A stretch of DNA of 64,000 bases from Streptomyces caniferus (lineage in GTDB: Bacteria > Actinomycetota > Actinomycetes > Streptomycetales > Streptomycetaceae), in contig NZ_BLIN01000005.1 in assembly GCF_009811555.1 (NCBI RefSeq), forward strand, positions 1,621,501 to 1,685,500, read 5' to 3'. Below are positions 61,676-64,000 of this stretch, piece after piece. The position numbers were made by a program, and so were the translations under genes. The notes beneath the pieces are model-generated. The model searched no databases. It saw only the letters and a program-made list of their open reading frames with translations, and had not been told where the DNA came from. Each line of letters opens with the position of its first letter. Position 1 is the stretch's first letter.

Positions 61676-62221
61676 TCAGTTCCCGGCCGAGCGGTCGTCC
61701 AGGACGGCCGGCGGCTCGTCGTCCATCTCGAAGGCCAGCGGGAACGGGGCATGGCCGGCCAGCCGCAGATAGCGCACCACCCGGTGGCGGCGGACGGCGC
61801 GGGCGGCCCGTACGGAGTCGTTGTGGAACCGGCGGGCCATCGGGACCCGGCGCACCGCGGCGGTGAGTTCGGTGACCGTCCGCTCGCCGCCCGGGGCCTC
61901 CCGTACGGCCTCCAGCTGGGCCTCCTCCTCGAAGATCGCCCGCAGTGCCTGGCTCAGCTCGCTCTCCGCGACCTCACGGTGGTCCTCCTCGGCCTGCCGC
62001 GCCTCGTGCGCGGCCTGGTAGAGGACGATCGAGGCGGCGGGATCGAGCACCCCCGAGGTCCCCACCTCCTGCGCGACGGACGCGCGCCGGAGCAGCTGGG
62101 CGTCGAGCGCCGCCCTGGCCGCGTCGATACGGGCGTGCAGGCGGTCGAGACGGCCGGCCGTCCAGCTCAGATAAATACCGATGAGGACGATCGCGACGGC
62201 GATCCAGATGAACGTGGTCAC
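61676..62221 (-). CDS. Single-span membrane coiled-coil protein (LemA-like region), unknown function
   Basis: A 181-residue protein with one N-terminal membrane helix (TTFIWIAVAIVLIGIYLSWT) followed by long helices rich in Ala/Arg/Glu: AGRLDRLHARIDAARAALDA, then ASIVLYQAAHEARQAEEDHR, resembling LemA-type helical bundles. The C-terminal third (VRRVPMARRFHNDSVRAARA, LRLAGHAPFP) is conserved in streptomycetes. Start GTG 62221. It lies between the structured repeat element and pdxS on the same strand as pimA. Function unknown. Confidence 0.82.
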   Translation of the reverse strand: MTTFIWIAVAIVLIGIYLSWTAGRLDRLHARIDAARAALDAQLLRRASVAQEVGTSGVLDPAASIVLYQAAHEARQAEEDHREVAESELSQALRAIFEEEAQLEAVREAPGGERTVTELTAAVRRVPMARRFHNDSVRAARAVRRHRVVRYLRLAGHAPFPLAFEMDDEPPAVLDDRSAGN

Positions 62222-62340
62222 GGCCGGTCACGATACGCGGTGCGCTGCGCTTGGCTTTCTTCCCACGTTTTTGGCTTTCCCGCCGTGGTGGTTTGTCGCC
62301 GTCTATCGCCCGCTGCGCGGTGCGCCCGTCGTTGCCCTTT

Positions 62341-62464
62341 CGCTGCGCTTTGCCTCGGCTCGTTTTTGGCTTTCTCGCCGTTGCGCCTGCGGCGGGCCCG
62401 TCCGCTGCGCTTTGCCCGTCCCGACGTGGGGGTTTGTCGCCGTTGCGCCTGCGGCGGGCGGGGC
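62341..62464. repeat. 62-bp tandem duplication inside the left arm
   Basis: 62341-62402 and 62403-62464 are two 62-bp units. Both start CGCTGCGCTTTGCC and share an identical 22-bp block (62375-62396 and 62437-62458), while the middle differs. The duplication explains most of the length difference between the arms. Confidence 0.85.
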
Positions 62465-62508
62465 CGCTGCGCGGGGCTGTCGGGGTGCGGTGACGGGCCT
62501 GCGCGGGT

Positions 62509-62549
62509 GGGGGTGTCCGGACTGCTTCGCTTTACGTCCGGACACCCCC
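62509..62549. repeat. Left hairpin: 14-bp perfect stem with 13-nt loop
   Basis: GGGGGTGTCCGGAC (62509-62522), loop TGCTTCGCTTTAC (62523-62535), GTCCGGACACCCCC (62536-62549). Confidence 0.93.
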
Positions 62550-62744
62550 ACCCGCTCCGACCCGCCCCCTCCCGTGGGTGGGAGGGAAAAACGGTGGTGG
62601 GAGTGCACGCAGGTGGTCCGGTGCACCTCGTGATCACACAGAAACAAGTCCCCCCGGTACGACCGGCAAGGGCCAGAACGGCCACAGCGACGGCCCGCCC
62701 CCACCAGCCTTCACCTCTCCACACACGGGAGGGGACGGGCCGGA

Positions 62745-62793
62745 GGGGCAGGGGTGTGGGACGTAAAGCGAAGCAGTCCCACACCCCTGCCCC
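62745..62793. repeat. Right hairpin: 18-bp perfect stem with the complementary loop
   Basis: GGGGCAGGGGTGTGGGAC (62745-62762), loop GTAAAGCGAAGCA (62763-62775), GTCCCACACCCCTGCCCC (62776-62793). The loop is the exact reverse complement of the left hairpin's loop, while the stem sequence differs. Confidence 0.93.
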
Positions 62794-62968
62794 GCAGGCC
62801 CGTCACCGCACCCACAGCCCCGCGCAGCGGACCCCGGCCCGCCGCCAGGCGCCACGGCGAGAAACCACCACGGCGGGACAGGCAAAGCGCAGCGGACGGG
62901 CGCACCGCGCAGCGGGCGACAAACGGCGAGCAACACCCACGGCGCGAGAGACAAAAACGTGGGAAGCC

Positions 62969-64000
62969 TCAATCCTTGGCCAGGCGGCGCCGCCCCCGCA
63001 GCCCCACCCTCTCGTCGGTGGCCACGGAGGCCGCCCCGGTGGTGACCGTCTCGTAGACGGCGAGGATGTCGGCCCCGACGGTCGACCAGTCGAAGCGGCG
63101 TACGTGGCGGGTGCCACGTTCGCGCAGTTCGGCGAGGCGTGCGGGATCCCCGAGCAGTCGTACCGCCGCAGCGGCGAGCGCCTCGGCGTCCTCGTTGGCG
63201 AAGAGTTCGCCGGCCTCGCCCTGGTCCAGGACCTGGGCGAAGGCGTCGAGGTCACTGGCCAGTACGGGGGCCCCGGCCGACATCGCCTCGACGAGGATGA
63301 TGCCGAAGGACTCGCCGCCCGTGTTGGGTGCGACGTAGACGTCGACGCTGCGCAGCAGCCGGGCCTTGTCCTCGTCGCTGACCATGCCGAGGAACTCGAC
63401 CCGGGAGCGCATCTCGGCGGGCAGCGCCGCGACCGCCTCCTCCTCGTCACCGCGGCCGGCGACGAGGAGCCGGGCGTCCGGCACCGCGGCCAGGATCGCG
63501 GGCAGTGCCCTCATCAGGACCGGCAAGCCCTTGCGCGGTTCGTCGATCCGGCCGATGAAGCCGATCGTCCTGCCCTGCCACTCGGCCTTCGGTTCGGCCG
63601 AGCCGAAGAAGTCGACGTCCACGCCGTTGGGGATGACCACCGCGTCGCCGCCGAGGTGTTCGACGAGCGTCCGGCGGGCGTATTCGCTCACCGCGATGCG
63701 GGCGCTGATCTTCTCCAGCGCGGGCTGCAGGATCGGATACGCGGCGATCATCGCCCGCGACCGCGGGTTGGAGGTGTGGAAGGTCGCCACGATCGGGCCC
63801 TGGGCCGCCCAGCAGGCGAGCAGGCCGAGCGAGGGCGAGGCCGGTTCGTGGATGTGGATGACGTCGAAGGCGCCGTGCTGGAGCCAGCGGCGCACCCGGG
63901 CCGCGGAGAGCAGGCCGAAGTTGAGCCGGGCGACCGAGCCGTTGTACGGGACGGGGACGGCGCGGCCTGCGGAGACGACGTACGGCGGCAGGGGTGTCTC
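62969..64000 (-). CDS. pimA: GT4 glycosyltransferase, probable phosphatidylinositol alpha-mannosyltransferase PimA (5' end missing)
   Basis: 344 residues are visible; the start lies beyond the right edge. It has the GT-B fold: ETPLPPYVVSAGRAVPVPYN and GSVARLNFGLLSAARVRRWL from the acceptor domain, FDVIHIHEPASPSLG, and in the donor domain IGRIDEPRKGLPVLM, LLVAGRGDEE and the GT4 motif ESFGIILVEAMSAGAPVLAS. PimA transfers the first mannose from GDP-mannose to phosphatidylinositol on the inner membrane face in PIM synthesis. The neighbourhood (pdxS/pdxT, yebC, ruvCAB) matches the actinobacterial PIM locus. The stop lies 3 bp from the inverted-repeat element. Confidence 0.92.
   Translation of the reverse strand, partial: ETPLPPYVVSAGRAVPVPYNGSVARLNFGLLSAARVRRWLQHGAFDVIHIHEPASPSLGLLACWAAQGPIVATFHTSNPRSRAMIAAYPILQPALEKISARIAVSEYARRTLVEHLGGDAVVIPNGVDVDFFGSAEPKAEWQGRTIGFIGRIDEPRKGLPVLMRALPAILAAVPDARLLVAGRGDEEEAVAALPAEMRSRVEFLGMVSDEDKARLLRSVDVYVAPNTGGESFGIILVEAMSAGAPVLASDLDAFAQVLDQGEAGELFANEDAEALAAAAVRLLGDPARLAELRERGTRHVRRFDWSTVGADILAVYETVTTGAASVATDERVGLRGRRRLAKD

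Follow-up and report, generated by a model that had tools for sequence, protein, structure and literature searches.

We put at roughly even odds (about 0.5) the reading that the two inverted hairpins in the window, the whole 64,000-nucleotide stretch of Streptomyces caniferus DNA analyzed here, are one member of a family of palindromic intergenic repeats, limited to a lineage, that act as folded DNA and are REP/BIME-like short of demonstrated membership. In the strain's own genome (G000), the 19-nt hairpin core, GACTGCTTCGCTTTACGTC, is matched 50 times at up to two mismatches (26 forward and 24 reverse, 44 exact), while the reversed pattern used as a control has none. A sequence-only reading of the window had taken the possibility that the loop is unique to this site as grounds for refutation, and these counts dispose of it. 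The matches in this genome form 21 inverted pairs, spaced 204-241 bp apart, along with eight single hairpins, and all have perfect stems of at least 17 bp. When the search was extended to other genomes of the genus, as that reading had proposed, the core was found in 15 of 392 Streptomyces genomes (its own included), with 1 to 50 copies each; in a first draw of 40 near relatives, which included 24 members of the genus, none had it at one mismatch. The hosts among the matches listed include S. noursei, S. lydicus, S. albospinus, S. sioyaensis, S. kronopolitis, S. eurocidicus and S. albireticuli.

In the window, the element lies in the spacer at 62222-62968 between two minus-strand genes and occupies most of it. 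It is about 700 bp of nested inverted arms (about 62262-62963) bounded by the outermost inverted motifs CCCACGTTTTTGGCTTTC and CAAAAACGTGGG, boundaries that are based on our reading of the sequence and of the inverted arms I1, I4, I7, and I13. Its closest paralogs are 89-90% identical to it across 631-647 bp. Hairpin 1 (62489-62569, plus strand) has an imperfect outer stem (62489-62499/62559-62569), an internal loop in which TGC (62500-62502) faces TCC (62556-62558), a perfect inner stem of 20 bp (62503-62522/62536-62555) and the conserved 13-nt loop TGCTTCGCTTTAC (62523-62535), whose bottom strand reads GTAAA-GC-GAA-GC-A with GAA at the apex. Hairpin 2 (62731-62807, minus strand) repeats this plan with an imperfect outer stem (62731-62741/62797-62807), an internal loop of GGA (62742-62744) against GCA (62794-62796) as read on the plus strand, and a perfect inner stem of 18 bp (62745-62762/62776-62793); its loop (62763-62775) is the reverse complement of the first, identical in all 13 nt. 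The sequence-only reading was therefore right about two perfect hairpins sharing one loop, reversed in the second copy, but the stems are 20 and 18 bp, not 18 and 14 bp. With the 3 x 3 interruption and outer stem included, complementarity is 85% over the 34-nt arms of hairpin 1 and 91% over the 32-nt arms of hairpin 2. The 13-nt loop has two matches in the window at up to two mismatches where 0.32 are expected, a count reached in 2 of 100 shuffles.

The centre between the hairpins (62570-62730) is not strongly palindromic in the window copy (L037), its best stem being 7 bp against a maximum of 11 bp over 20 shuffles. The left outer arm (62262-62488, plus strand) consists of short repeated modules that are inverted relative to the right outer arm (62808-62963, minus strand) in I1, I2, I4, I9, and I11. 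To the left lies a gene for a 181-aa protein without a Pfam match (61676-62221, minus strand); similar DNA adjoins the orthologous site in 12 of the 14 other host genomes, and in the remaining two the fetched locus is at a contig edge. To the right, a gene for a group 1/4 glycosyltransferase (62969-64000, minus strand, continuing past the window) has its 3′ end 5 bp from the right edge of the element.

The pairing of the stems was assessed on 203 non-identical segments, reduced to 91 distinct 47-mers by leaving out segments containing N and three hairpins with only 5-6 of 17 pairs (one from Streptomyces, with 6 of 17), while the weakly paired row L137 was retained. Of the 1274 cells at stem positions 4-17, counted from the loop, 1222 were Watson-Crick, 3 were wobble and 49 were mismatched. 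This count is the fairer figure for pairing, as the 44 hairpins used for the covariation analysis were picked for their diversity. Among those 44, 13 of the 17 pairs vary and all 13 covary, changing on both sides, with 206 two-sided cells, no one-sided cells and 14 unpaired cells; 98% of cells are paired at the true register and 33-47% in slid controls. The covariation score was 0.725 compared to 0.133 in shuffles, and neither it nor the two-sided cell count was reached in any of 500 shuffles, although coarser measures were less discriminating (of the 500 shuffles, 37 reached the number of pairs with two-sided change and 28 the number of additional pair types). A perfect stem of at least 16 bp was present in 171 of the 203 segments. 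That structure is kept while sequence changes, in many copies and species, is thus strongly supported, as the sequence-only reading had proposed from two copies, and the possibility it had raised against itself, that such changes lie within chance, does not hold. At L219 (G281) and L162 (S. rhizoryzae), one arm of the hairpins gives way to long runs of C, perhaps through assembly errors at strong palindromes.

The internal loop could be located in 168 of the 203 segments, using listed triplets only, and is unpaired in 122 of these (TCC x TCC in 59, TGC x TCC in 56, TCC x TGC in 6 and GGA x GCA in 1), paired in 45 and occupied by Ns in one. Read on the bottom strand, 121 of the 122 unpaired cases are GNA x GNA, and we infer that they form sheared G-A closures. 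In the outer stem, eight positions pair in 36-43 of 46 distinct cases, while three pair in only 18, 29, and 30.

The apex of the loop follows a rule of its own: on the bottom strand it is G-N-A or G-N-N-A, of which five types (GAA, GCA, GACA, GTCA, and GCCA) were found. Fetched loci with a supporting stem gave 133 GAA, 42 GCA, 10 GACA, 5 GTCA, 1 GCCA and no other apex, most of these loci having come from a search in which the apex was set to G[AC]A. When the pattern allowed any 2-6 bases at the apex, 13 genomes yielded 226 places compared to 225 with the apex fixed as GAA or GCA; the extra place is in G327, and among the matches listed the apex was GAA or GCA throughout. In another host, G210, all 75 matches with CGTAAAGC among the 100 of 107 listed have GACA, GTCA, GCCA, or GAA. 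The rule is broken by most of the other 25 listed, those with CGTAGAGC, and the reversed-pattern control in that genome gave 23 matches. Since there are only five apex types, the many copies are not independent. At one site TCC replaces TGC, breaking one of the GC pairs beside the apex. Of two genomes with an enlarged loop, the inner hairpin has the apex GCA (a triloop in the fold) in one and GAA in its counterpart.

GACA, GTCA, and GCCA do not match the GNRA rule of RNA tetraloops. As far as their sequence tells, the apex variants fit the rule for a DNA cap and not that for a GNRA tetraloop. PMC4686876 describes an exceptionally stable class of DNA mini-hairpins in which a GNA or GNNA loop is closed by two or more G-C pairs; the hairpins of this family have such closing pairs by sequence alone, the GC pairs flanking the apex being fixed in our search patterns. 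In standard folding of the bottom-strand 21-mers, both G-C pairs formed only with GACA, and the loops with GAA or GCA stayed open; the argument for the cap is therefore the stability published for such loops. In one host (G406), hairpin 1 at the site orthologous to that of the window (L210) carries a loop insertion of about 50 nt with a small hairpin of its own, which demonstrates that the loop itself can accept inserts.

The placement of the family is also established. Based on neighboring gene calls from a simple codon-position score, no core lies inside a called gene, and a single core overlaps the edge of one, by 7 bases. Both neighbors were called for 57 pairs, of which 31 are between convergent genes, 25 between co-directional genes and one between divergent genes. 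The two hairpins have the same +- relative orientation in 61 of 62 pairs, and none of 59 pairs shares identical inner 15-bp stems; in the window's own genome all 17 main-subfamily pairs combine, by our reading, a 20-bp type with an 18-bp type. Regarding position along the chromosome, long-form copies lie in a narrow part of the main contig in four of four genomes (chances of 6e-7, 0.008, 0.002, and 0.002), but we do not claim confinement to the chromosome core, as the short-form copies of G153 start at 0.16 of 8.20 Mb, and a 6.3-Mb contig of G327 has copies at 68-89 kb. No switch with replication strand was apparent by eye in the one genome inspected.

Their position after gene ends, with divergent spacers avoided (1 of 57), is also what would be expected of an RNA-level 3′-end element, whose transcribed hairpins would stop transcription or protect mRNA ends from both directions and whose loop would be read by a protein or ribonuclease machinery. 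We consider this explanation rather unlikely. The centres of the elements do provide it with some support: in the one genome where short-form pairs were measured, all 11 enclose a centre stem of 14-25 bp, and 7 of these have at least four A and at least four T at their edges, a count made with no shuffle control. A minor long-form subfamily in the window's genome (L031, L032, and L034) has an A/T-flanked palindromic centre of 19-22 bp that is likely a bidirectional terminator, and hairpin clusters are reported to cause intrinsic termination (PMC8355165). Like bidirectional intrinsic terminators, the family is sited after gene ends and has a symmetric layout. However, only 7 of 58 long-form centres beat all 20 of their shuffles for palindromy and 51 do not, so that a general terminator role for the centre was rejected, and the window element itself has no terminator-like site: a scan for intrinsic terminators gave two matches where 0.8 are expected, both at 62236-62251 outside the element, and no T-tract site within it. 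Single hairpins between co-directional genes also show no preference for sense (16) over antisense (13), and we rejected their orientation as a sign of RNA function. Furthermore, wobble pairs are not enriched (3 compared to 49 mismatches), which disfavors an RNA read from one strand, although this is not conclusive because transcription of both strands would disfavor wobble in RNA too. Together with apex variants that follow the DNA cap rule, these results disfavor the structured RNA that the sequence-only reading had named as one of its two options. An RNA role retains some probability because both strands may be transcribed and because of the terminator-like centres of the 11 short-form pairs and the minor subfamily. 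A comparison with Rfam (positions 62000-63300) gave 43 matches at E ≤1, none of which reaches its gathering score, and the microRNA families listed were dismissed as their scores are far below threshold.

Copies within a genome evolve in concert. Sites were linked between genomes by one or both flanks, and at all 18 testable sites of the window's genome another copy from that genome was closer than the element at the orthologous site. Over all genomes this was the case at 92 of 119 sites and the ortholog was closer in 27, with the scores of the orthologs being lowered by differing copy numbers per genome and by orthologous copies that are cut at contig ends. The paralog was closer even in a case with flanks that are 96-97% identical. 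On the other hand, in those species, which are the closest pair, no part of the spacer is better conserved than the hairpin block, contrary to what constant rewriting predicts. Many sites, and some stem types, are common to several or related species, while the outer arms differ in length and module order.

The site in the window illustrates this turnover. Of the 14 other hosts, seven have long-form hairpins with other stems or loops (G080, G327, G191, G281, G210, G406, and G102; one hairpin is interrupted in G406 and G102 has a single one), two have short GGAC-TTC-GTCC hairpins (G310 and G153), and five have no hairpin (G207, where the spacer is 58 nt, and G364, G076, G279, and G319). The short-hairpin pattern was found in 5 of 199 genomes, and by this pattern G153 has 34 short hairpins along with one long one. 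Fourteen short-form loci of G153 were fetched, and for 10 of them the orthologous site in other species, supported by both flanks, is long-form; the hairpin type has therefore been switched across many inherited sites. One of these 10 loci retains one long hairpin, and two have flanks that are 95-98% and 96% identical to those of S. lydicus. Replacement of whole hairpins between copies, not separate compensatory mutations, is consequently the source of part of the two-sided change. The compensatory change put forward in the sequence-only reading stands as far as the keeping of pairing is concerned, but not as a full account of how both sides came to differ.

Concerted evolution also enters a second alternative, in which the structure is unselected: palindrome correction during replication and gene conversion would match the arms to each other, and the 19-nt core would be an ordinary double-stranded protein site. 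Near-perfect Watson-Crick arms that lack wobble intermediates would be expected from this process, as would the copies in which the internal loop has been corrected to perfect pairing (45 of 168). One locus of the window's genome (L026), where the left hairpin is partly deleted and the right one is flipped relative to its own loop, is in keeping with it too and suggests hairpin inversion or a cruciform-mediated rearrangement. Pure correction, however, should erase the 3 x 3 unpaired loop, which persists in 122 of 168 hairpins in many genomes; a purely mutational palindrome correction is therefore insufficient. In addition, the G and A of the apex are kept while the N varies and even gains a base. 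We consequently regard this explanation as doubtful.

Homogenised folded DNA, the reading we prefer, would explain most of these observations because it accommodates wobble-free pairing, a strand-specific cap, a kept internal loop, unlike partners and placement after genes. The typical unit would be two inverted, non-identical hairpins around a short centre, sited after gene ends. We infer that its functional form is DNA, most likely a cruciform arm or single strand of the strand GTAAA-GC-G(N)A-GC-A. The fold would start from an outer stem, followed by an internal loop of GNA x GNA and then by an inner stem that is free in sequence, and would end in a mini-hairpin capped by GNA or GNNA beside GTAAA. 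A hypothetical trans-acting protein would recognize the GTAAA and the cap, with the stem being required only as a helix. Recombination would homogenise the copies within a genome by rewriting whole hairpins, and both sides of a stem would therefore change at once.

Among known systems, the family is most like the REP, BIME, and REPIN elements, which are likewise intergenic palindromes in many copies and inverted dimers. In PMC3733652, PMC8266576, and PMC3116915, unlike partners are described as common in several of those families, as are stem irregularities, and the Streptomyces family has both. The constant part of our family, however, is the loop and not the foot: within an 18-nt foot window, a GTAG tag was found in at most 3 and a CGTC tag in at most 8 of 171 hairpins, the former on any side or strand. 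The inner stems are 17-22 bp with an outer stem in addition, compared to 5-13 bp for GTAG REPs in PMC3733652. The same paper describes CGTC-tagged REPs as having no known dedicated transposase, as mostly head-to-head dimers and as including heterodimers in several families; our family shares the lack of a known dedicated transposase, the inverted dimers and the unlike partners, but CGTC-tagged REPs have 8-9 bp stems and 4-5 nt loops, both shorter than here, and their CGTC foot is absent. The words "Streptomyces" and "Actinobacteria" do not occur in that paper (PMC3733652).

A search for the Y1 transposase family (RAYT, PF01797) was positive in one of 15 hosts (G210) and negative in the window's own genome; elsewhere 2 of 15 genomes without the family and 5 of 14 control genomes were positive. 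The Y1 gene of G210 is on contig C11, where there is no family place among the 100 of 107 matches listed. Mobilisation by a RAYT is thus not supported, and the family resembles REP/BIME elements yet does not pass as one of them because Y1 was not found, at the sensitivity of this search, in 14 of the 15 hosts, which also sets it apart from RAYT-linked REPs. The cruciform bound by a protein or transposase that the sequence-only reading had offered as its other option fares better in part, as a DNA hairpin or cruciform fits the data better than an RNA, but not as regards a transposase of the Y1 type.

A closer parallel within the genus is provided by the palindromes of Streptomyces telomeres, whose hairpins have GCA loops with sheared G:A closure and are bound as single strands by Tap, according to PMC4513846. 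The GCA loops are shared with our family, which differs from the Tap/Tpg palindromes in being scattered over the chromosome at tens of places, in its inverted pairs and in the GTAAA beside the cap. It is conceivable, though we hold it to be improbable, that the family represents a new class of folded-DNA repeats in which a non-HUH protein would recognize the GNA-capped single-stranded or cruciform hairpin and actively copy it over resident hairpins; a genome could then switch its hairpin type at dozens of inherited sites whose places are unchanged. Movement by a DDE transposase, as a classical non-autonomous transposon (MITE) with terminal inverted repeats, is very improbable, since the inverted termini (CCCACGTTTTTGGC as outermost motif) and the existence of both occupied and nearly empty orthologous sites, such as the 58 nt of G207, are set against target-site duplications that were not recognized by eye, outer arms variable in length and module order, and the many sites common to species.

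The family has tens of copies per genome, its cap is near-invariant and its stems are free, and its hairpin type has been replaced at inherited sites between species with up to 98% flank identity; it would thus be a natural experiment on DNA- versus RNA-level constraint on secondary structure. It would make testable the homogenisation of dispersed palindromes without a known transposase, as well as the use within the chromosome of G:A-capped hairpins like those of the Streptomyces telomere.

Several further observations concern the limits of the family. The pattern used to fetch most loci kept the 19-nt core fixed, with some searches relaxing it in part, and the conservation of the core in pattern-fetched sets is accordingly due to selection by the pattern. 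A viral origin was rejected based on the absence of the exact core from viral contigs (0), and a plasmid origin was likewise set aside, the one case being a 2.8-Mb Streptomyces replicon with six places that is almost unannotated in the collection. Matches in Acidobacteriia and Paenibacillus pair at only 6 and 5 of 17 positions and were dropped as chance. A covariance-model search matched 12 of 199 genomes, of which G146 and G177 have palindromes with other loops that we took as unrelated. The sequence-only reading knew of no named Streptomyces element with this loop, and in agreement with it the Rfam comparison gave no family at its gathering score and a literature search, most subscription papers being outside its reach, did not find the element and returned the loop string in two papers whose titles point to unrelated subjects. 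In G190 (L237, L246, and L253) and G145 (L238), related hairpins have an enlarged loop of about 42 nt that ends in CGCTTTAC, with the motif GCGAAGCTGCCGTCC downstream; they are possibly a sister family beyond the main hosts. Lastly, a second dispersed palindromic repeat (about CTGAAGGGCGTGGGAGGTACCCCCAGCGGCG) is located within the same kind of spacers, or replaces the hairpin element, at L207 (G364), L077, L299, and L300.
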